A stretch of 64,000 nt of DNA, from assembly GCA_903861145.1 (NCBI GenBank), contig CAIOTH010000047.1, positions 62,001 to 126,000 on the forward strand, given 5' to 3'. The stretch is from an uncultured Bacteroidota bacterium. Lineage in GTDB: Bacteria; Bacteroidota; Bacteroidia; Chitinophagales; LD1. This document shows positions 24,280 to 55,402 of the stretch, in pieces (the stretch's first letter is position 1; every line of letters begins with the position of its first letter). Below the pieces are notes generated by a model, which saw only the letters and a list, made by a program, of their open reading frames with translations, was not told where the DNA came from and made no database searches. Both the position numbers and the translations under genes were made by a program.

Positions 24280-24288
24280 TTAACCGAT

Positions 24289-24726
24289 ATGCCGATTTCA
24301 TTTTATGCTGTTGACGTAAAACAACCGCCCTTGAAAAAGACGGTGATCAAAAAGTTTATTGCAGCGCAAGCATTAAAGGGGGCGAAAAAGAAACTGCAGG
24401 TTACTTACATTTTTTGTAGCGATGAGTATTTGCTGAACATGAATCGCCAATTTTTAGAGCACGATTTCTATACCGATATCATCACCTTTCCGCTTGGTGA
24501 AACTGAAAAGGAAATTGAAGCGGAAATATATATCAGTGTTGACCGGGTTAAAGACAATGCAGAGAAGTTCAAAAGCGATTTTTCAGATGAGCTTCATCGG
24601 GTAATTTTTCATGGGGTATTGCATCTAATGGGTTATAAGGACAAGAGTAAGGCGGACAAAGAAACCATGCGAGGCAAAGAAAATGAGTGGCTACGCAAGT
24701 TTAAAGCTGCTTTAAAGAGGGTTTAA
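24289..24726 (+). CDS. ybeY: Endoribonuclease YbeY (16S rRNA maturation)
   Basis: 145 residues. A zinc-dependent RNase for 16S rRNA 3' end maturation and ribosome quality control. The metal motif is HGVLHLMGYKDKSKADKETM near residues 104-123. The first two His are present, while the third position of the canonical HGxLHLxGyDH motif is Lys-Asp-Lys rather than Asp-His, a form I associate with Bacteroidota YbeY. FYTDIITFPLG is the other conserved stretch. It ends the thr run, followed by 266 nt with the parS-like sites. Confidence 0.92.
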   Translation: MPISFYAVDVKQPPLKKTVIKKFIAAQALKGAKKKLQVTYIFCSDEYLLNMNRQFLEHDFYTDIITFPLGETEKEIEAEIYISVDRVKDNAEKFKSDFSDELHRVIFHGVLHLMGYKDKSKADKETMRGKENEWLRKFKAALKRV

Positions 24727-24834
24727 TGCAAATAGTACAGCGCAGATAAAAACAGGACGTTTTTTCAGTACAACATAATGACAATCAATTAGATGTACCT
24801 AAAAATTGTCTTAAAAGCATCAAACCCCCATTTT

Positions 24835-24850
24835 TGTTCCACGTGGCACA
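24835..24850. other. parS-like ParB/Spo0J binding site 1
   Basis: TGTTCCACGTGGCACA matches the consensus TGTTNCACGTGNAACA at every fixed position except the 13th (C for A). It has the CACGTG core. An identical 16-mer follows 46 bp downstream. Chromosomal parS sites usually lie near the replication origin and are loading sites for ParB and hence SMC. Confidence 0.75.
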
Positions 24851-24880
24851 ATTTTGAGGACATATTTCAGGCCGCCCAAT

Positions 24881-24896
24881 TGTTCCACGTGGCACA
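24881..24896. other. parS-like ParB/Spo0J binding site 2
   Basis: Second exact copy of the 16-mer at 24835-24850, same orientation and same single deviation from consensus. The flanks differ beyond a few A/T bases, so the shared core is the conserved part. It lies 96 bp upstream of the mnmG start, and mnmG (gidA) is near the origin in many bacteria. Confidence 0.75.
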
Positions 24897-24964
24897 TTTG
24901 CTAAGTAAGTACAACACCAGCCAAGTGGTTCAAGAGGGAAGCAATATTTAATAAGCAGAGTAGT

Positions 24965-24972
24965 TATCTTTG
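24965..24972 (+). promoter_or_regulatory. Putative -7 promoter box of mnmG
   Basis: TATCTTTG fits TAnnTTTG and ends 20 nt before the mnmG GTG. A -33 TTTG is not evident, so only the -7 box is proposed. Confidence 0.45.
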
Positions 24973-24992
24973 CGCTCTAAAACAAAAAAGAA

Positions 24993-26876
24993 GTGTTTAA
25001 AGAATACGATGTTATAGTGGTTGGTGCGGGCCATGCCGGTTGCGAAGCGGCGGCAGCAGCGGCCAACATGGGAAGCAGCGTTTTGCTAGTAACCATGAAT
25101 ATGCAAACCATTGCACAAATGAGTTGCAATCCTGCCATGGGTGGAATTGCTAAAGGGCAGATTGTAAGGGAGATTGATGCCATGGGGGGTTACTCTGGTA
25201 TCGTTTCTGATAAAAGTATGATTCAATTCCGCATGTTGAACAGGAGTAAGGGGCCTGCCATGTGGAGCCCGAGAACGCAGAACGATAGAATGATGTTTGC
25301 CAGCGAATGGAGAAACATGCTGGAGCAAACTCCCAATGTAGATTTTTGGCAGGAAATGGTAGGGGGATTGATAGTAAAAGGTGGGCGCGTTTGTGGCATT
25401 AGAACCTCAATGGGGATTGATATACCAGCTAAATCGGTAGTGCTTACCAATGGCACTTTTTTAAACGGTTTGATACATATAGGCGAGAAGAATTTTGGTG
25501 GTGGTAGAGCAGGAGAGAAGGCCGCCCATGGTATTACTGAACAGTTGGTTGACCTTGGTTTTGAAGCCGGAAGAATGAAGACCGGCACGCCACCAAGGAT
25601 AGATGGGAGAAGCCTTGATTATACCCGAATGGAAAGACAAGAGGGGGATGAAGATGTAGTAGGATTTTCATACAAAAAGGGGGTTAATCCTTTTAAAGAA
25701 GTAGGCAAGCCTCTTGCCCAAAGGTGTTGTTGGATGACTTATACCAACCAGAAAGTGCATGATTCGCTACGCACTGGCTTTGATAAATCGCCGATGTTTT
25801 CGGGTAGGATAAAGGGGTTGGGGCCGCGCTATTGCCCTTCAGTAGAGGATAAAATAGACCGCTTTGCCGATAAAGACAGGCATCAACTGTTTGTTGAACC
25901 CGAGGGTTGGAGCACTGTGGAGATATATGTCAATGGCTTTTCAACCTCATTGCCAGAGGACGTTCAATACAAAGCCTTAAGGGAGGTTTCCGGCTTTGAG
26001 AACATGAAGATGTTCCGTCCCGGATATGCCATAGAGTATGATTATTTTCCCCCTACCCAATTAACTCAAAGCCTGGAGACCAAGCTTGTAAAAAACCTGT
26101 TCTTTGCCGGGCAAATTAATGGTACAACCGGTTATGAAGAAGCTGCCTGCCAGGGATTAATGGCTGGAATAAACGCCCACAGGGCCGCAAAAGACGAGGA
26201 GCCAGTAATAATGAAGCGCTCGGATGCTTACATTGGAGTACTAATTGACGACCTGATTAATAAGGGAACGGAAGAACCCTACCGTATGTTTACCAGTAGG
26301 GCAGAATATAGAATCCTTCTTCGCCAGGACAATGCCGACCTGAGACTTACCGAAATCGGACATCAAATAGGCTTAGCAGATGATGAAAGACTTCAAACTG
26401 TGAGAGCTAAAAAAGCCGCGATAAGTGCCATTGGAGAGTTTATAACCAAATACCCGGTAAGCCCGGAGGATATTAATAGCAGCTTAAGGGAGGTAGGAAG
26501 TGCCGAAATAAACCAAAAAACCAAGTTAGATAAGATACTGGCCCGGCCGCATGTGGACCTTGTACTACTAGGAAAAGCCCTACCTGAGCTAAAAAACATG
26601 CTGGGCAAGTACGATAAAGATGTAGTAGAGTCGGCAGAAATTGAGCTTAAATATGCCAGCTATATTCAAAAAGAAGTCGAGCTAGTAGAGCGCATGGGCA
26701 AGATGGAGAACATTAGGTTAGATGCCGAATTTGATTATTCCAACCTAAAATCTCTCTCGATAGAAGCAAGGCAGAAGCTGGCTAAGATAAAACCAACATC
26801 GCTGGGACAGGCTAGTAGAATAAGCGGAGTTTCACCGGCAGATATGTCGGTTTTACTAGTGCACATGGGCAGATAA
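24993..26876 (+). CDS. mnmG: tRNA uridine-5-carboxymethylaminomethyl synthesis enzyme MnmG (GidA)
   Basis: 627 residues, full length. An FAD protein that works with MnmE to modify the wobble uridine of several tRNAs. FAD motif VVGAGHAGCEAA is at the N-terminus. The MnmG signatures GGRAGEKAAHGI... GRMKTGTPPRIDGRSLDY and FFAGQINGTTGYEEAACQG are present. The C-terminal helical MnmE/tRNA-binding part ends in SLGQASRISGVSPADMSVLLVHM. The start is the GTG at 24993, after an AAAAAAGAA leader; no better ATG fits the conserved N-terminus. The parS-like pair lies directly upstream. Confidence 0.97.
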   Translation: MFKEYDVIVVGAGHAGCEAAAAAANMGSSVLLVTMNMQTIAQMSCNPAMGGIAKGQIVREIDAMGGYSGIVSDKSMIQFRMLNRSKGPAMWSPRTQNDRMMFASEWRNMLEQTPNVDFWQEMVGGLIVKGGRVCGIRTSMGIDIPAKSVVLTNGTFLNGLIHIGEKNFGGGRAGEKAAHGITEQLVDLGFEAGRMKTGTPPRIDGRSLDYTRMERQEGDEDVVGFSYKKGVNPFKEVGKPLAQRCCWMTYTNQKVHDSLRTGFDKSPMFSGRIKGLGPRYCPSVEDKIDRFADKDRHQLFVEPEGWSTVEIYVNGFSTSLPEDVQYKALREVSGFENMKMFRPGYAIEYDYFPPTQLTQSLETKLVKNLFFAGQINGTTGYEEAACQGLMAGINAHRAAKDEEPVIMKRSDAYIGVLIDDLINKGTEEPYRMFTSRAEYRILLRQDNADLRLTEIGHQIGLADDERLQTVRAKKAAISAIGEFITKYPVSPEDINSSLREVGSAEINQKTKLDKILARPHVDLVLLGKALPELKNMLGKYDKDVVESAEIELKYASYIQKEVELVERMGKMENIRLDAEFDYSNLKSLSIEARQKLAKIKPTSLGQASRISGVSPADMSVLLVHMGR

Positions 26877-46060: not shown

Positions 46061-48445
46061 ATGGCAAAATCAAAATTCAACGCTAAAGATTTTTGGAGGG
46101 CATTTAAATGGGTGCAGATTGTACTGTGGTCGTTTATTGGATTGATAGTGCTGTTTTTTATGGGCGTGAACTACGGTATGTTAGGCAAGCTGCCTGATTT
46201 AGATGCTATTCAAAACCCGAATAATTCAGTTTCTACAACCATTTACTCTTCGGACTATGAAGTGCTGGGTAGTTATTACACTGAAAACAGGATTGAAATA
46301 AGCTACGATGAACTATCTCCATACCTTGTAAGGGGTTTAGTGGCTACCGAGGATAAACGCTTTTACGACCACTCGGGCATTGACCTTAAAGGGCTTTTTC
46401 GGGCAGTAGTAATGACCGGTATTTTAAGAAGAAATGAGGGGGGGGGAAGTACGCTAACCCAACAGTTGGCCAAGAACCTTTTTCATCGCGATTTTGAACA
46501 CGCAGGGAGGTGGCAACGTTCAACACAAAAAATAAAGGAATGGGTTTTGGCCGCTAAGCTTGAGCGAACATTTACCAAAGAAGAACTGATAGACATTTAC
46601 TATAACACCGTTGAGTTTGGTTCGCTTTCGTACGGTATTAAAACAGCATCCTTCACCTATTTCTACAAGGACCCGAAAGATTTAAAACCGGAAGAGGCGG
46701 CTTTGTTGGTGGCCATTGTAAATGCCCCATCGCACCTTAACCCCAGGCGCTACCCTGAACGTGCAATTGTGCGCCGCAATCTTGTTTTAGACAGAATGAA
46801 AGAGGCAGATTTTATAAGCAAAACGCAGTGCGACTCGCTAAAAAAGCTGAAGATAAAACTGAACTATCATAACCCGGATTTTAGAGCGGGACTGGCGACT
46901 TACCTGCGCGAAAACCTAAGACAGGAATTGCAAAACTGGTGCGATAAAAATCCTAAACCGGACGGCAGTAAATGGAACATTTATGAGGACGGTTTGAAAG
47001 TATTTACAACCATCGACTCGCGCATGCAACGCGATGCAGAAGATGCGATGGCCGAGCATTTGACCGCTTTGCAGGATGCTTATTTTAAAGAGTGGCATGG
47101 AAAAGACCCTTGGAAATTTGGCGCCAAGGCTAAACCGGATCTGTTGAACAAAATGGTTAGGGAGAGCGAGCGATATCAAGGCATGAAGGCTGATGGAAAA
47201 ACTGATGAGGAAATAAAAGAAGCCTTCGATACCAAAATACCGATGACCATTTTTTCGTGGCACGGCAATAAGATTTTAAGTGAGGATACTACGATGAGTC
47301 CGCTGGATTCGTTGCGGTATTATTTACAGATTATTCAAGTAGGTTTTATTGCTGCCGATGCAAAGACCGGTGAAATAAAGGCATGGATTGGCGGACCGAA
47401 CATTCGGTATTTTCAGTTAGACCATGCCAAGAAAAGTACGAAGCGACAAGTTGGCTCGACCATGAAACCATTTTTGTATGGCATGGCGCTTGAAAGAAAT
47501 TATGAGCCCTGTACGCTAGTGCCTTACCTATCGCCAGAGTGCGCCGGTATAGATGCCAGCTGGAACCCAGAGGGCAGTGGTAAGTTTGAAGAAGGGCAAA
47601 TGGTGCCTATGAAAGACGGGCTTGCTTTTTCGGATAACCGGATAACGGCGCGTATTATGTGCGAAATAGGCAACCCGCAGTTGTTAGTTGATTTTGCAAG
47701 GCGGTGTGAAATTGAAAGCCCGCTGGATGCCGTGCCTTCGCTTTGTTTAGGTACTTGTGATATTTCGTTGTACGAAATGGTTGGTGCTTATACCTGCTTT
47801 GCCAATTTGGGCACCTACAGTAAACCCTATTTTATTAAAAAGATTGAGGACCGCGATGGCAACGTTTTGGCACAGTTTACCGAAACGCATAAAGAAGCTA
47901 TTCCTGAAAAAACGGCTTATACGGTTACCGAAATGCTGAAAGGTGTTATTAATAAGGGCACAGCAGCCCGTTTACGTGGACGCTATGGGCTGGATATGCC
48001 ACTTGCGGGCAAAACCGGAACTACCCAAAGTAACAGTGATGCCTGGTTTATGTGTTATAACCCAGACATTGTTGTAGGCGCCTGGGTGGGCTTTGAGCAG
48101 CCTAGCGTGCATTTTGCCAGCAATACCTCGGGAGCGGGCGCAACGGCAGCTATGCCCATTGTAGGGGGCTTTTTAAAGCGCATATTTGCTGACCGTGTGT
48201 TGCAGGTACCTAGAAATGAGTTTGCTTTACCGGGAGACTCGACTATACTTTACAATTTTGATTGCGCACCAATACCGATAGATACGAGTCAAAAAAAAAG
48301 TCCAATAATTAAGGTTTTCGAAAAAATAAAAGATGCATTTACACCGAAACACAGGGAAGCTAATACTGATACCGTCGTTCGTGGGCGAAGACGACACAAG
48401 CATCATACCCGAGCAGGTAAAGACGACGATATTACCACTAACTGA
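46061..48445 (+). CDS. Penicillin-binding protein 1A (bifunctional transglycosylase/transpeptidase)
   Basis: 794 residues. An N-terminal membrane anchor at about 15-40 is followed by the GT51 transglycosylase with ATEDKRFYDHSGID and GGSTLTQQLAKN. The transpeptidase has the active Ser466 in GSTMKPF (S-T-M-K), the SDN motif in FSDNRITA and KTG in AGKTGTTQSNSDAWF. The C-terminus is basic (GRRRHKHH). It polymerises and cross-links peptidoglycan in the periplasm. Its last 113 nt overlap the next gene in another frame. Confidence 0.96.
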   Translation: MAKSKFNAKDFWRAFKWVQIVLWSFIGLIVLFFMGVNYGMLGKLPDLDAIQNPNNSVSTTIYSSDYEVLGSYYTENRIEISYDELSPYLVRGLVATEDKRFYDHSGIDLKGLFRAVVMTGILRRNEGGGSTLTQQLAKNLFHRDFEHAGRWQRSTQKIKEWVLAAKLERTFTKEELIDIYYNTVEFGSLSYGIKTASFTYFYKDPKDLKPEEAALLVAIVNAPSHLNPRRYPERAIVRRNLVLDRMKEADFISKTQCDSLKKLKIKLNYHNPDFRAGLATYLRENLRQELQNWCDKNPKPDGSKWNIYEDGLKVFTTIDSRMQRDAEDAMAEHLTALQDAYFKEWHGKDPWKFGAKAKPDLLNKMVRESERYQGMKADGKTDEEIKEAFDTKIPMTIFSWHGNKILSEDTTMSPLDSLRYYLQIIQVGFIAADAKTGEIKAWIGGPNIRYFQLDHAKKSTKRQVGSTMKPFLYGMALERNYEPCTLVPYLSPECAGIDASWNPEGSGKFEEGQMVPMKDGLAFSDNRITARIMCEIGNPQLLVDFARRCEIESPLDAVPSLCLGTCDISLYEMVGAYTCFANLGTYSKPYFIKKIEDRDGNVLAQFTETHKEAIPEKTAYTVTEMLKGVINKGTAARLRGRYGLDMPLAGKTGTTQSNSDAWFMCYNPDIVVGAWVGFEQPSVHFASNTSGAGATAAMPIVGGFLKRIFADRVLQVPRNEFALPGDSTILYNFDCAPIPIDTSQKKSPIIKVFEKIKDAFTPKHREANTDTVVRGRRRHKHHTRAGKDDDITTN

Positions 48446-49046
48446 GTTTATTGTTGAGAATGCCAAAACGGCGCGCCGATACTTACGAGCTATTGGATAC
48501 AAAAAGAACTTTGATACAGAGGTAACCATCCATGAGTTAGATAAACACGCCCAGCATCAAAACTGCGAATCGTTATTACACGGTGTTCTACAGGGCACAG
48601 ATTGCGGTCTTATATCTGAAGCAGGCAACCCGTGCATTGCAGACCCAGGGCATGAGATTGTAGCTTATGCTCATAAACGAAGTATACAGGTAGTGCCTTT
48701 AGTGGGCCCAAGTTCCATTTTACTAGCCCTTATCAGCTCAGGATTTAATGGACAACAATTTACCTTTAACGGTTATATACCTATACAAAACCCGGAGCGG
48801 AGTAAGAAAATTAGGAACATGGAAAGCAACAGCCGGTTAGCTACCCAAATATTTATGGAAACGCCTTTCCGTAATCAAAACATGCTGGATGAAATTTTGA
48901 AGACCTGTTTAGATGAAACCATGTTGTGCATTGCCTGCGACTTAACCTTACCTACCGAATATATAAAAACACAAACCGTTAAAGCCTGGCGGAAGAATAC
49001 AGAGAACTTTCAAAAGCGGTACTGTATTTTTTTGTTGGGGCGGTAA
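48333..49046 (+). CDS. RsmI-like SAM-dependent tetrapyrrole methylase-fold methyltransferase
   Basis: 237 residues. KLILIPSFVGED starts the fold, EFIVENAKTARRYLRAIGYK follows, and the SAM-binding GLISEAGNPCIADPGHEIVAYAH is the TP-methylase motif. It resembles the 16S rRNA 2'-O-methyltransferase RsmI, but in the shorter Bacteroidota form. Its conserved N-terminus begins with MHLHRNTGKLILIPS, so ATG 48333 is the start, inside the last 113 nt of PBP1A, read in another frame. A rRNA target is inferred. Confidence 0.88.
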   Translation: MHLHRNTGKLILIPSFVGEDDTSIIPEQVKTTILPLTEFIVENAKTARRYLRAIGYKKNFDTEVTIHELDKHAQHQNCESLLHGVLQGTDCGLISEAGNPCIADPGHEIVAYAHKRSIQVVPLVGPSSILLALISSGFNGQQFTFNGYIPIQNPERSKKIRNMESNSRLATQIFMETPFRNQNMLDEILKTCLDETMLCIACDLTLPTEYIKTQTVKAWRKNTENFQKRYCIFLLGR

Positions 49047-49295: not shown

Positions 49296-49937
49296 CTAAT
49301 TTACTGCTTTCCCCAGAATAGTTTCTCCATCAATTGTTACATCTCCGTTTTTAACCAATACTTCTACATCGTGGGGTAATAGCACTGTAACCTGGCTACC
49401 TAATTTTATTAAACCAATTACATCGCCTTGTTTAACTGCCTGGCCGGGTTTGGTATAATCTACAATTCTACGCGCTAAAAAACCTGCAATTTGAATAACC
49501 TTATATTTTTTACCGGTAGGTGTTTCCATTAAATATTCGTTGTGTTCATTTTCGAAACGAATACCGTATTCATTACTCATTTGGACGGCATTATGAAAAC
49601 TACCATGGGTGTATGTTTCGGTAACTACCTTTCCATCGACCGGTGCACGCTGGTAATGTACATTGGTAACATCCATTTGAATTGAAATGATTGTGCCTGC
49701 AGTATCCACATCTTTTGTCCACACGTTGATAGCGCCGTATTCTTCTTTGGTAACTACTAAGGATTGGCTATTCCATTTATGAATAGATACAATTTTACCG
49801 TTAGCAGGACTAACAAAAACCTGAGAATTACCAGGTATATTACGATTAGGCTGACGCAAAAACCAGACCTGGTAGTATGTAAATAAAAAGACGGTAAGTG
49901 CAATTGCCGTGTAGATAAGCCCCTTTAAAAATTTCAT
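49296..49937 (-). CDS. psd: Phosphatidylserine decarboxylase, short form proenzyme
   Basis: 213 residues. An N-terminal membrane segment (LIYTAIALTVFLFTYYQVWF). VSPANGKIVSI and NVHYQRAPVDGKV are the Psd motifs. The pyruvoyl-forming cleavage site would be Gly180-Ser181 in IKLGSQVTVLLP, where the usual short-form motif is FGSRVD. Serine becomes pyruvoyl after self-cleavage, and the enzyme makes phosphatidylethanolamine. The substituted residues around the site are odd, but the core Gly-Ser is kept. Confidence 0.88.
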   Translation of the reverse strand: MKFLKGLIYTAIALTVFLFTYYQVWFLRQPNRNIPGNSQVFVSPANGKIVSIHKWNSQSLVVTKEEYGAINVWTKDVDTAGTIISIQMDVTNVHYQRAPVDGKVVTETYTHGSFHNAVQMSNEYGIRFENEHNEYLMETPTGKKYKVIQIAGFLARRIVDYTKPGQAVKQGDVIGLIKLGSQVTVLLPHDVEVLVKNGDVTIDGETILGKAVN

Positions 49938-49976: not shown

Positions 49977-50771
49977 CTACTTCTCTTCTCTTTCTTCGGC
50001 TTGTAATGACAACGGATCAGTGAATTGGTATCTGCCGTATTTGTCTACACTTACATCAGGTACCCGTTTATTTTTTTCGAAGAACTTATAGCCCACCAAC
50101 AAATTATCCCAAAATTCTTCATGTTGTTTATAAGGATCGAAGCTGAGGTAATAAGTCATATTCTCGGGCGTCATTCTAAAAGGAAAAATTTGAACCGGTA
50201 TTTTTTGCTGACCATTACTGCATGCTTTAACAGCACACATGTAAATATCTTCGATGTAGTAATTACTCATAGCTAAACAACCAGCACTACATTGTGCACC
50301 ATGAATAAAAATATTACCTCCCTTCCTTTCAGCTTCGCTTAGCTTAGTATCACTTTCGTTAGGATAGTTAATACCTAAAGACAAATAATAACTGCTTTGG
50401 GGATTGAAATCGTTGATGTAATAAAAACCTTCAGGCACTTGCATATCGCCTTGTTGGCGTTTAGGGCCTAATAGGCCGGATAAGGCATAAATATCGAACT
50501 GTTTGAACTTTACATATTTTCCATCAGATCTTTGCACCCAAACTTCCATAACTGCTTCCATTTTAAAAACCCTGACAACCATATTTCCAAAGGTCTCTTC
50601 AGGAATTTCCAGTGAACGGCATTTCATTTTAATTAACTCCTCCTTACGCTCATAAACATCCTTTAGCTTTGGCAAACCCTTCTGAATTTCTTCAAACGAT
50701 TGCTTTTCGGGCCTAAATGCTGAGCCAACGAGAAAAACCACTAAGAGAAAGCAGACCTTCAAAATTTTCAT
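49977..50771 (-). CDS. L,D-transpeptidase family protein (YkuD domain)
   Basis: 264 residues. Signal sequence MKILKVCFLLVVFLVGSAFR. A charged helical stretch to about residue 65 is followed by the YkuD domain. The catalytic motif is IFIHGAQCSAGCLAMSN, with His, the SxGC Cys and the extra Cys four residues before it. DMQVPEGFYYINDFNPQS is the preceding substrate-binding part. It cross-links peptidoglycan or attaches proteins to it. ATG 50771 is preferred over the TTG at 50780. It borders the gene-free region. Confidence 0.88.
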   Translation of the reverse strand: MKILKVCFLLVVFLVGSAFRPEKQSFEEIQKGLPKLKDVYERKEELIKMKCRSLEIPEETFGNMVVRVFKMEAVMEVWVQRSDGKYVKFKQFDIYALSGLLGPKRQQGDMQVPEGFYYINDFNPQSSYYLSLGINYPNESDTKLSEAERKGGNIFIHGAQCSAGCLAMSNYYIEDIYMCAVKACSNGQQKIPVQIFPFRMTPENMTYYLSFDPYKQHEEFWDNLLVGYKFFEKNKRVPDVSVDKYGRYQFTDPLSLQAEEREEK

Positions 50772-51271
50772 AAGCCACAAGTGTCATATTAGCAGGGGGA
50801 TTACATATTTTCTTTGTTTTTATACGTGGCTTAAAAAATAAAGTGCCCAAAATCAACAGGTTTTAAGCAATGCACACCTTGTATTATAATAGTTTGTTTA
50901 ATTAATTAATAGAACAGTTATTACTAGCTGTGTGAATTTATAGCCTAAGTTGAGGCCATAAAATTTTGAGTTCACAATAATAGACAGTTGTGCACCGTAA
51001 TCCACATAAAAAAGGCACATTAAATGTATGTAAATCAAGCAACTATATACCTTATACACAAGCTGTGGAAACCCCTGTTGACATCGCAAAAGGCATAACT
51101 TTTGGCTAACACACTGTTAACCTAAGTGTGGATTACGTGAATTGTGTGAACATTGAAAAAGCAGAAAACCGCGAAGTTTTTAAAATTGATTTTCCAAAGA
51201 AACTTTCGGGTCAGTTACCAACTGTTTTTTTGGGTTACCAACAGGCCTTTTTGTGGGTAACGTAAAACGCT
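50772..51271. other. Gene-free region with AT-rich block and DnaA-box-like cluster (candidate oriC)
   Basis: No gene in 500 nt. DnaA-box-like 9-mers: 51052-51060 TTATACACA, identical to E. coli R2. 50998-51006 TAATCCACA and 51127-51135, the same on the other strand, within a perfect 11-bp inverted repeat. 51252-51260 (minus) TTACCCACA, one base off TTATCCACA. Weaker ones at 50929-50937, 51064-51072 and 51143-51151 (minus). An A/T-only rich block lies at 50881-50924. This resembles an origin, but gene orientation on both sides points toward it, which an origin would not favour. Confidence 0.5.
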
Positions 51272-52819
51272 CTATTTGGGCTTTATTTCCAACAATTTTA
51301 ACTGGCGGCCCTCAACGTCAAAATCAACAATCTTCTCTTCGGTGAATAATATACGCCCGGTAGAACTGACGTATATATGGTTTAGACTTACAAAAAAGTC
51401 CTCGGAGGTATGCACTATTTTTTGAGTGGTGGATTCGGTGCCATTCGCCAGTAGCTTTGTGCCTAATAAATAGAGGCCATGTTCGTCATCGGCTGCGCAA
51501 TCTTCATTATAGAACAAGAAAACATCGTTACCCAGGCGGGATGCCTGTGCAGAGAACGCGGAATAGATGTTATGAGCGCTTTGATGCTTATCAATAAAAT
51601 CGGCCGCCTTAATGGTCATACTTTCGTCCAACCGGTAGGCTAAGAGGTAATGCCGTTCAAAAAGCGTTGTGCTTAGACCGGTAACTTTATCTTTTGAGTC
51701 CGTACTATGCCGGCATTCAGCAATTAGCATAAAATTGCCGCCATCTAAAGGTATGATTTGACGGCCCTCTACATACTCTAAGCCCTGGGCCCGGTTGTTT
51801 TGATAGGAGGCCGCTTTAGAAGTAAACTTTACATCAGGTATTATTTCCTGTGACGCAGTGGGGGTAAAATCAGGCAGGTAGCCTTTTATGGAAATATTTT
51901 TTAAAACACTGCTGCGCTCATTCATATAATGGTCAAAGGCAACTACCAATTGCCCGTTGTTGAGACAGGCAATCAAGGGGTCGTTATTAATTAACGCATC
52001 ATGGCCGGGGTTTGTTGAAGGTAACATGAGCATGGGCGCCTCATCATCGGTATTTGTTTTATTGATAGAGAAAAAATAAAACCGGTGGGCCCGTTTGTCT
52101 TTGGTATCCGGGTGCAAAGGGTCTTCCTGTATTCGGGCCTCTAAAAAAACCTGGCCAGTGTTGCTTACAACGATGCGTTTAAAGTTTACCAGGTCTTTAT
52201 CTGTTTTTAAAGTGTAACGATGCTCAAAAACAGCATCGGTTATATTATCAAGGAGCAACACCTTAAACTTACTTTGCCGGAAATAGTGTTTTATAACAAT
52301 AGCCGTTTTGCTTTGGTCTTCGCTTTGGGCAATATCAATGCCGCTGGCTGCAAAATGTTCTTTAGCCTCATCAAAAACCACTACCGGTTCCCCTGCCGGT
52401 AATAAGGTAACCGGGTCGTAATCCTGGCGCAGAATTTTTGGTATTTGTTTGTATCCATCGCGGCCGTCAACCATGTTAGGTCGGTCGGGTAGGTGCTCGG
52501 TACGAGAGTAGAAAATGCAAAGCTTTTTATCTACAATAGCCGCCTTCAGGTAATCGGTTTTTTCGCCGAAGGGCTGGTATACCGGTGAGCTTTTTGCTAT
52601 TGGAAAGCCGGCAGCATATTTTAAAATATAAAACCGGGCAGGCTTTTCGGGGTGGTTGGGTTTTTCAAAACCAATTACGTACCACGAGCCATTATAATCG
52701 CCCAGGACTTCTATCGCCGGTTGGTCAATAATTGAGCTGGTTTTAATGTCAAAACCGGCGGCATAACCACGCAGAAGAAGGAAGCAGTAAAAAAGGGGGA
52801 AAAGCAAAAAATTTTTCAA
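51272..52819 (-). CDS. Secreted protein of unknown function, probably beta-propeller
   Basis: 515 residues. Signal peptide MKNFLLFPLFYCFLLLRGYAAG. The rest consists of short repeated beta strands with GDYNGSWYVIGFEKP, VVFDEAKEHFA and VSNTGQVFLEARIQEDP, as in WD-like or kelch-like propellers, but no named repeat is certain. It starts at a TTG (52819), the only start that gives the signal peptide. No family recognised. Confidence 0.7.
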   Translation of the reverse strand: MKNFLLFPLFYCFLLLRGYAAGFDIKTSSIIDQPAIEVLGDYNGSWYVIGFEKPNHPEKPARFYILKYAAGFPIAKSSPVYQPFGEKTDYLKAAIVDKKLCIFYSRTEHLPDRPNMVDGRDGYKQIPKILRQDYDPVTLLPAGEPVVVFDEAKEHFAASGIDIAQSEDQSKTAIVIKHYFRQSKFKVLLLDNITDAVFEHRYTLKTDKDLVNFKRIVVSNTGQVFLEARIQEDPLHPDTKDKRAHRFYFFSINKTNTDDEAPMLMLPSTNPGHDALINNDPLIACLNNGQLVVAFDHYMNERSSVLKNISIKGYLPDFTPTASQEIIPDVKFTSKAASYQNNRAQGLEYVEGRQIIPLDGGNFMLIAECRHSTDSKDKVTGLSTTLFERHYLLAYRLDESMTIKAADFIDKHQSAHNIYSAFSAQASRLGNDVFLFYNEDCAADDEHGLYLLGTKLLANGTESTTQKIVHTSEDFFVSLNHIYVSSTGRILFTEEKIVDFDVEGRQLKLLEIKPK

Positions 52820-52934
52820 AAACAGCGGGGTTTAAAAAATAAAAATAGGCCCTTTAAAGCGACGTACTGTAGATAAAGCATGATTAGTTTTAACGGGCTA
52901 AACAAGCCTGTTGATTTATTTGGACGCGACCCGA

Positions 52935-54755
52935 TTATCCGGCCTTTACAAACCGGCGCACACTCATGGTACCATTAAACATAATGCGGAACAAATAAGT
53001 ACCGGCAGCCAGCCCAGATGAATTTAATTGAAGCTTGCCCTTGCCGCTGTTTACTTCTGCCGGTGCAAGTTGTTTAACCAATTTGCCTTGGGCGTCGTAA
53101 ATACTGAGGTCCATTTTGCCGCCTTGTGGGGTTTGGTAAGCAACATTCAATTCGTCTTTAACCGGGTTGGGGTAAACGCCGTCAATTTGTAAAGCACCAT
53201 TTACCGCGCTTATATTTTGAACACCGGTTACCGAATCGGCACCCAATTTTACAAAAGCGGCATACAGGTTTATCATACCATCGTTGGTGCGGCCATCGGC
53301 CCACACCGGTATTGCATAGCTGCTGGTTGAAAGTACGGCGTTATACTCGCCAATACCAAAGCCGCCATTTTGAGAACCAATTTGGCTAAATTCGGTTGGC
53401 ACGGTAGTAACTTTAATATCGGCAGCAAAAGTTTGGCCTCCGTCATCTGAATAGGTGAGGTAGATGTCGGATTTGTTATTTAAGGAATCATCCCGTCTAT
53501 CCCACCAAGTAATAATTAAGCGGCCGGTTGAAGAAACCGTGAGCGATGGGTAATATTGATCAGATGCAAGATTGGTGGTGTTGTCGTTTAACACGCGGGC
53601 AGCACTCCAGGTGGTGCCGCCATCGGTTGATTTCGAAAAATAAACGTCGTTACCGGTGTTGAGCTTTGTGGTAATGCCATTGGCGGTCCAAACCATGTAT
53701 AAATTGTTGGCATGCGCGCCGAGACTGTTATCGCAAGCAATATATGCGCAGGGATATAATCTTGAAGGAGTAACCCCCTCAATTGAATCGTTTGGTTCGG
53801 TGGAAGTAAAGCGGCCGAGTGCCAAATCGCTGATTTTTACTTCGGGATGAAAAGTAACACCACCATCGGTTGAAACCGCATGATACAGCGAATAATTAAG
53901 GCTATCAACCGTTGCAAAAAAACTAACATGCACATTGCCGTTATTATCTACCGCGTCGCTACCAAATTGTTCCATTTTATACGTGCCCGAATTAACAACA
54001 GCAGAGATGGTATCGAATATACCGGTAACCGGTGTTTTGCGGCGCAGGCCCATATAAGTGGCGCCGGTGTTACCGTCGGCACCAAAAAACGAGCAATATA
54101 GGTTGCCATAGTAAGGGGATGAAGGATTGTTATCGCCGGCAAGCCATTCTTTATCAAACGCCCCGCCACCACCAAAAATGGAAGATGGTGTGGTGCCAAT
54201 ATAATCGTTTACCGAATCGCGTTTCCAGGTACTACCGCCATCAAGGCTGTAGCTCCAGTACAAATCCCAACTGGTCTGAAATGTGGCATCGGCCCATAGG
54301 TTTATCCAGCTAAAGTAAAGTTTGCCCTGGTCGGTAAACGAAAAATTCGGATCGCCGCCGCCGAGTATTGTTGCGTTGGGGGTAACCGGTGCGGTTAAAA
54401 AGTTGCTTGTGCTCCAGGTGTTACCAAAATCGTTGGTGTAATAAATAAAATTAGTTTGTGTTGGCAACGAAAACTGGTTGGTGCTAACAAAATTAGATGA
54501 CACAACAATATTATTAGAATCGGTTGGGTTGATGGCCGCATGGACTTCAGATTGAATTTCGGTAGCGGTATGATTAACCAGCGTGTTGCTTGCGCTGCGC
54601 TCATTACCCTGCGTACCCACCGGGTGTTGCTGTTGTTGAGCGGCCTGGCGCCATTCGGTTTTTTCTTTCCAGGCATCTCTAACAGCCTGCTGCGCATTTT
54701 GGGCCGAAAGAAAACCAACAAATAAAAAAGCAGAAACGCTTGTAAAAAGTTTCAT
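52935..54755 (-). CDS. Secreted BNR/sialidase-fold protein with T9SS sorting domain
   Basis: 606 residues. Signal peptide MKLFTSVSAFLFVGFLSAQ. Several sialidase-like repeats follow with the Asp-box pattern S.DGG.TW (YSLDGGSTWKRDS, STDGGVTFHPEVK, KSTDGGTTWSAA, YSDDGGQTFAAD). The C-terminal part (YPNPVKDELNVAYQTPQGG to AAGTYLFRIMFNG...RRFVKAG) is a T9SS type A sorting domain, so it is secreted through T9SS and then attached or released. Catalytic residues of a true sialidase are not identified, so no glycosidase role is claimed. Confidence 0.9.
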   Translation of the reverse strand: MKLFTSVSAFLFVGFLSAQNAQQAVRDAWKEKTEWRQAAQQQQHPVGTQGNERSASNTLVNHTATEIQSEVHAAINPTDSNNIVVSSNFVSTNQFSLPTQTNFIYYTNDFGNTWSTSNFLTAPVTPNATILGGGDPNFSFTDQGKLYFSWINLWADATFQTSWDLYWSYSLDGGSTWKRDSVNDYIGTTPSSIFGGGGAFDKEWLAGDNNPSSPYYGNLYCSFFGADGNTGATYMGLRRKTPVTGIFDTISAVVNSGTYKMEQFGSDAVDNNGNVHVSFFATVDSLNYSLYHAVSTDGGVTFHPEVKISDLALGRFTSTEPNDSIEGVTPSRLYPCAYIACDNSLGAHANNLYMVWTANGITTKLNTGNDVYFSKSTDGGTTWSAARVLNDNTTNLASDQYYPSLTVSSTGRLIITWWDRRDDSLNNKSDIYLTYSDDGGQTFAADIKVTTVPTEFSQIGSQNGGFGIGEYNAVLSTSSYAIPVWADGRTNDGMINLYAAFVKLGADSVTGVQNISAVNGALQIDGVYPNPVKDELNVAYQTPQGGKMDLSIYDAQGKLVKQLAPAEVNSGKGKLQLNSSGLAAGTYLFRIMFNGTMSVRRFVKAG

Positions 54756-54826
54756 AGTCCGTTTGTTTTGAGAGAAGTGAAGATACAATTTCGGGAAAAT
54801 ATAATAGTTAAAAATACAGCCCTATA

Positions 54827-55402
54827 TCACTTTTTGTACCAACTCATTTCTTCAATATATTTCCAAACTGTATCAGGTAAAAAAAACTGCATCGAAATAC
54901 CTTTACGGATGTTATCGCGGATAAAGGTGGCCGATATGTCAAGAAACGGAAACTCATCCAACAGGCGAATGTTTTTATGATTGGGGTATGGGTTTTCGTC
55001 AAAACCGCGCCGGCGATATACATAAATAGTATACTTCAACAGCTTTTCGTAGTTCTTCCATTTGTGTAGAGTAACCAGGTTATCGCTACCCATAATGAGT
55101 GAAAACTCGTGTTGCGGGTATTTTTCGTGCAGGTAAACCAGCGTATCTATAGTATAAGATGGCTTGGGCAATTTAAATTCGATGTTTGATGACTTCAGGG
55201 TTGGGCATTCATCAATGGCCAGGTTGAGGAGCGTTAACCTGTCGCGGTCTTTAAGCAGGGTTTCTTTTGGCTTTAGCGGGTTTTGGGGCGATACCACTAA
55301 CCATACCTTATCTAAATCAGTGGTTTGACTGATGTAATTGGCAATTATCAGGTGTCCGTTGTGCACCGGGTTAAACGAGCCGAAAAAAAGACCGATTTTC
55401 AA
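54827..55402 (-). CDS. nadD: Nicotinate-nucleotide adenylyltransferase
   Basis: 191 residues. GLFFGSFNPVHNGHLIIANYI is the nucleotidylyl-transferase phosphate-binding motif with HxGH-type His. ISATFIRDNIRKGISMQFFLP is the C-terminal motif, close to ISSTxIR of the family. It makes nicotinate adenine dinucleotide from NaMN and ATP, an essential step in NAD synthesis. The start is a TTG at 55402; no ATG is in frame upstream, and the family N-terminus MKIGLFFGSFNP begins exactly there. Confidence 0.95.
   Translation of the reverse strand: MKIGLFFGSFNPVHNGHLIIANYISQTTDLDKVWLVVSPQNPLKPKETLLKDRDRLTLLNLAIDECPTLKSSNIEFKLPKPSYTIDTLVYLHEKYPQHEFSLIMGSDNLVTLHKWKNYEKLLKYTIYVYRRRGFDENPYPNHKNIRLLDEFPFLDISATFIRDNIRKGISMQFFLPDTVWKYIEEMSWYKK

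Follow-up and report, generated by a model that had tools for sequence, protein, structure and literature searches.

The intergenic region of 500 bp between a ykuD/dpaA-like gene and an ORF of 515 aa is very probably the chromosomal replication origin (oriC) of a Chitinophagales bacterium. The window, which is the whole 64-kb stretch analysed here, corresponds to bases 62001–126000 of contig C47 (150,276 bp) in a genome of 4.70 Mb assembled in 174 contigs. Among named relatives, MAGs with the labels Bacteroidetes, Sphingobacteriales or Chitinophagales are the closest, followed by Chitinophaga. An earlier note had proposed the gap as a candidate replication origin. This proposal is borne out by a rigid array of DnaA boxes and an AT-rich element kept throughout the genus, by mostly single-copy homologues in other families, by the proximity of parS-like sites in 28 genomes, and by the sampled skew minimum of the relative G073. 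The feature is of an ordinary kind; here, it is placed in an uncultured Chitinophagales lineage.

Table 1. Positions of the features in the window.
Feature	Position	Strand	Remark
Probable oriC region (intergenic)	50772–51271		between ykuD/dpaA-like gene and 515-aa ORF
ykuD / LdtF-DpaA-YafK-like gene, flanking	49977–50780	−	ATG probably at 50771
psd, phosphatidylserine decarboxylase family	49296–49937	−	adjoins the element in most of the family's genomes
nadD	54827–55402	−	adjoins the element in several families; here two extra genes intervene
Conserved core of the putative oriC, model R1, 262 positions	50877–51137	−	read in ykuD sense
Putative DNA unwinding element	50877–50926		thermodynamically least stable 50-bp duplex of the 64-kb window
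CTA-GTA-ATA, DnaA-trio-like	50919–50927	−	other strand 3'-GAT-CAT-TAT-5'; CTAATAATAA in most relatives
Degenerate box region CTATAAATTCACACA	50929–50943	−	adjoins the trio-like triplets
DnaA box TAATCCACA, 1 mismatch	50998–51006	+	between array and unwinding element
DnaA-box array, 88 bp, fixed spacing	51050–51137	−	seven box-like sites, 12–14 bp apart
DnaA box TTATACACA	51052–51060	+	faces the box at 51064–51072
Box GTTTCCACA, 2 mismatches	51064–51072	−	relatives have CTATCCACA
Weak box ATGTCAACA	51076–51084	−	one relative has TTGTCCACA
Weak box AGGTTAACA	51115–51123	−	forms such as CAATCCACA in relatives
DnaA box TAATCCACA, 1 mismatch	51127–51135	−	in array
Weaker box TTACCAACT	51215–51223	+	beside the outer box
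Weaker box TTACCAACA	51235–51243	+	beside the outer box
Outer box TTACCCACA	51252–51260	−	
parS-like site TGTTCCACGTGGCACA	24835–24850	+	second copy at 24881–24896
Two DnaA-box-like 9-mers, GTATCCACA and TTGTCCACA	49702–49723	+	inside psd; synonymous-site constraint

Setting of the intergenic region

As shown in Table 1, the ykuD-like gene and then psd, both on the minus strand, lie on one side of the region, and the 515-aa ORF, for which a family match was looked for and none was found, lies on the other. The size of the gap is 491 bp when it is counted from the TTG start at 50780, and 500 bp if the gene starts, as is likely, with the ATG at 50771. The gap had been described as much longer than most, which is confirmed by its rank: among the gaps that separate ORFs of 150 aa or more in the window, whose median is 71 bp, only two are longer, and one of these two (24280–24992) contains a shorter ybeY-like ORF.

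The interval between the region and nadD (51272–54788) is occupied by the 515-aa ORF and a T9SS-sorted BNR-repeat protein. This two-gene insertion is absent from most genomes of the same genus; the interval is similar in G011 and shorter in G006. The rsmI-like ORF at 48333–49046, as listed, starts within the 3' end of the PBP1A-like gene (46061–48445) in another frame, and its true start may be later.

DnaA boxes and putative unwinding element

The boxes read earlier in the gap are all present: one is identical to R2 of E. coli (TTATACACA), two TAATCCACA boxes face each other within a perfect 11-bp inverted repeat, CGTAATCCACA (50996–51006 and 51127–51137), and further boxes carry one or two mismatches. 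Several of the seven sites in the array are recognisable solely through the consensus of the relatives.

The weighted box score of the gap, 11.0 per 500 bp, is the highest of the window and of contig C47. The chance level was estimated from simulated 64-kb sequences (order-2 Markov, 60 runs), in which the mean maximum score was 5.6 and the highest run reached 11.5; in simulations with the composition of the gap, a score of 11 was reached in 0 of 4000. Taken alone, the box score is suggestive, because a simulated 64-kb sequence can reach 11.5, and it is conservation that decides. When 7035 half-kilobase windows from loci of 10 kb or more were ranked by box score, the top 16 all corresponded to the gap in its own or same-genus genomes. 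The non-coding cluster is therefore both above chance and conserved, as is characteristic of oriC. Exact TTATMCACA sites were also collected in the own genome (50 matches listed); for a pair of such sites 296 bp apart on contig C153, no further box with up to one mismatch was found within the surrounding 3.3 kb.

The putative unwinding element lies adjacent to the boxes, which is another characteristic of oriC, and it includes the AT-rich block of 44 bp (50881–50924) pointed out earlier, for which an A+T content of 84% was measured. At its edge, the triplets have the general form CTA-RTA-ATA across the relatives. The complement, 3'-GAT-YAT-TAT-5', read from the box toward the AT-rich block, shares the form and orientation of DnaA-trios (PMC8287927, PMC7561715). 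No genome has more than one copy of the conserved TTCACACAGCTARTAATAA-type motif, and the reversed control gave 0 matches. Under the strict BUS rule, three or more 3'-NAN-5' triplets need a DnaA box no farther than 16 bp away that carries no more than two mismatches; as judged by eye, three triplets (GAT, CAT and TAT) are present here, and the nearest box, AAATTCACA, has three mismatches, which is one over the limit.

The course predicted from this arrangement covers DnaA binding, a DnaA-trio role for the triplets, the direction in which the duplex unwinds, and initiation itself. DnaA would load on the strong and weak boxes of the array (51050–51137), with more at 50998 and 51215–51260, and would be passed on to the degenerate boxes beside the trio-like triplets (50919–50943). 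From there, leaving the boxes behind, the DnaA oligomer would extend along a single strand into the AT-rich element (50877–50926), the opening of which would lead to helicase loading.

Conservation among relatives

Approximately 260 bp are conserved over 15 same-genus copies with nearly fixed spacing, in the order of box-like sites 12–14 bp apart, the CACA / CTA-RTA-ATA motif, and the AT-rich block. The alignment of these copies consists of the 88-bp array, roughly 100 bp of less conserved sequence, the conserved AATTCACACAGCTARTAATAA, and AT-rich DNA. In the array, there is a single 1-nt gap across the 15 aligned sequences, 14 of which are gapless. The cluster lies at the equivalent place, upstream of ykuD, in the same-genus genomes.

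The sequence-only model R1 was run against 18 genomes of the genus, including the own one, and gave a strong match in 16. Outside the genus, a match with an E value of 4e-20 was obtained in another genus of the family, and weaker, mostly single matches were obtained in other families including Chitinophaga, whose element was found by a model built without Chitinophaga sequences. When ykuD was used as the marker in Chitinophaga, no box cluster adjoined it, and the model placed the element elsewhere. Each genome has one strong R1 match, the few extra matches being weak, so that the element occurs essentially in one copy, as does oriC. Under strict filters, R1 gave no match in G002, G012, G018 and many genomes of other families. 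In G018, a member of the family, ykuD-psd and parS share a contig (its contig C4, locus L020); neither a box cluster beside ykuD nor an R1 match was found in this genome. With the model, probable origins next to parS are recovered in further families of the order. Most bacteria of this order are uncultured, and sequence alone suffices to trace the element through it.

Position relative to parS and dnaA

The two copies of the palindrome TGTTCCACGTGGCACA confirm the parS-like sites noted earlier at a distance of 26 kb. The pair lies between what we take, by eye, to be a ybeY-like ORF (approximately 24289–24727) and an mnmG/gidA-like gene starting near 24993. In the relatives, parS was searched for as TGTTYCACGTGRMACA with one mismatch allowed, and the distance to the nearest site was recorded. 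A parS-like site lies 2–42 kb from the element in all 28 genomes that have both on one contig; six fragmented genomes, in which element and site fall on separate contigs, are uninformative for distance. In G073, a single contig of 5.08 Mb, the sole site of the genome is 11 kb from the element, and in two single-contig Chitinophaga chromosomes of 6.3 Mb (LR632930.1 and CP079103.1), the distance is approximately 4 kb. The probability of such closeness by random placement is approximately 0.4% for G073 and 0.1% for each of the two Chitinophaga genomes, which are not mutually independent. A nearby parS is usual, although not strictly defining, for oriC; parS is most often found near the origin (PMC7333895).

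The dnaA gene of the own genome is on contig C4, so the candidate does not adjoin it. A better cluster beside dnaA, which the earlier note would have counted against the gap, was not found: the 3 kb examined around dnaA contain no box cluster. In Bacteroidetes, oriC is commonly far from dnaA (PMC4755523), and adjacency to dnaA, although common in other bacteria, is not a defining property here because it is unusual in Bacteroidota. The sole ParB found is encoded on contig C62 of the own genome.

Gene neighbourhood, GC skew and gene direction

In most of the genus, the gene order is nadD-element-ykuD-psd. The element directly abuts psd in genus g4, lies between nadD and psd in g3, and adjoins nadD in several further families. 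In G005, nadD is 66 kb distant, and psd and ykuD are on a different contig from the element, which indicates that the element is kept independently of these neighbours. The varying neighbours, together with the placement in G005, speak against the element being simply a promoter for a single gene.

For G073, the cumulative skew was calculated from 40 evenly spaced 20-kb stretches. The minimum falls in the stretch holding the element, which also has the highest box score of the 40 (16.0), and the maximum is near 0.9 Mb, approximately 2.3 Mb away; the amplitude has a P value of 0.0003 by permutation. The best symmetric replichore split lies one to three stretches from the element, and in a contiguous 435-kb stretch, the fine-scale minimum is broad, with its lowest point 59 kb from the element. 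In the own contig, the cumulative minimum is at approximately 60–75 kb of C47, which is 40–50 kb from the element (113 kb). Local minima are 61 kb from the element in G040 and approximately 60 kb in G009, and no minimum was seen in G005. The skew is weak throughout, and on fragmentary contigs it is noisy and is not taken as proof. It supports the region and not the exact base pair, because the fine-scale minima lie tens of kilobases off.

Such displaced minima, and the many genomes in which ykuD or psd lies downstream of the element, would also be expected if the gap were a DnaA-titrating or DnaA-regulated site near the true origin, that is, a datA- or DARS-like site or a DnaA-controlled ykuD-psd promoter. 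This explanation is considered highly unlikely. In G005, the element persists at a distance from ykuD and psd, in other families it stands beside nadD, and it has an unstable AT-rich part with a trio-like motif. Furthermore, it is the top box cluster within 150–435 kb in the own contig, G040, G005 and G073, and no other cluster of comparable strength was found near the displaced skew minima. An oriC is the preferred reading of the gap.

The earlier note had also remarked that the genes converge on the gap, which would suit a terminus. The convergence itself is confirmed in the own contig, where approximately 60% of the coding length is on the plus strand to the left of the element and 77% is on the minus strand to the right; however, its reading as a terminus does not hold. 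In the single-contig relative G073, no more than 56–58% of the coding length agrees in direction with the fork, and local reversals of gene direction are accordingly to be expected. Because of this weak strand bias and the parS-like sites close to the element in every informative genome, the argument from converging genes is weak. A terminus was rejected on parS proximity and the sign of the skew, and the probability that the gap is a terminus or an unrelated conserved intergenic element is negligible, considering that parS-like sites lie within 42 kb in 28 of 28 informative genomes, that skew is negative over the first 60 kb of the own contig, the reverse of the sign to the left of a terminus, that the homologue in G073 is at the sampled skew minimum and not the maximum, and that a DnaA-box array is present.

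Box-like sites within psd

The two 9-mers inside psd are contained in the segment GTGTGGACAAAAGATGTGGATAC, 13 bp apart and 1.2–1.4 kb from the core. Over 16 genomes, excess synonymous identity within psd peaks at the codons of this segment (V72, 0.68; T74, 0.60; V77, 0.55; mean, 0.10); in nine-codon windows, the site reaches 0.39 and the others up to 0.34. The pattern is kept in g1 and g2 except G007, and it is lost from g4, whose psd is immediately next to the putative origin. The 9-mers may be a second DnaA site, or they may result from chance plus codon preference. A bipartite origin, the second predicted DnaA-binding part of which would lie within the psd coding sequence, is a tentative idea and rather doubtful.

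Comparison with known origins

The origin model makes coverage-based growth-rate estimates, oriC plasmids and DnaA assays testable in Chitinophagales; oriC plasmids are in use in Cytophaga hutchinsonii. The oriC of Escherichia coli is alike in its closely and regularly spaced boxes, some strong and some weak, next to an AT-rich unwinding element and in not adjoining dnaA, whereas its gene context differs. The BUS of the Bacillus subtilis oriC has the same order of one or more boxes, a short spacer, triplets whose middle base on the loading strand is A, and AT-rich DNA; in contrast, the nearest box here has three mismatches, the run of triplets is short (three), and the region does not adjoin dnaA. 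Among other Bacteroidota, where the gene context may differ from that here, predicted origins such as that of chromosome I of Prevotella intermedia are likened to the present region by arrangement, being likewise intergenic DnaA-box clusters far from dnaA (PMC4755523).
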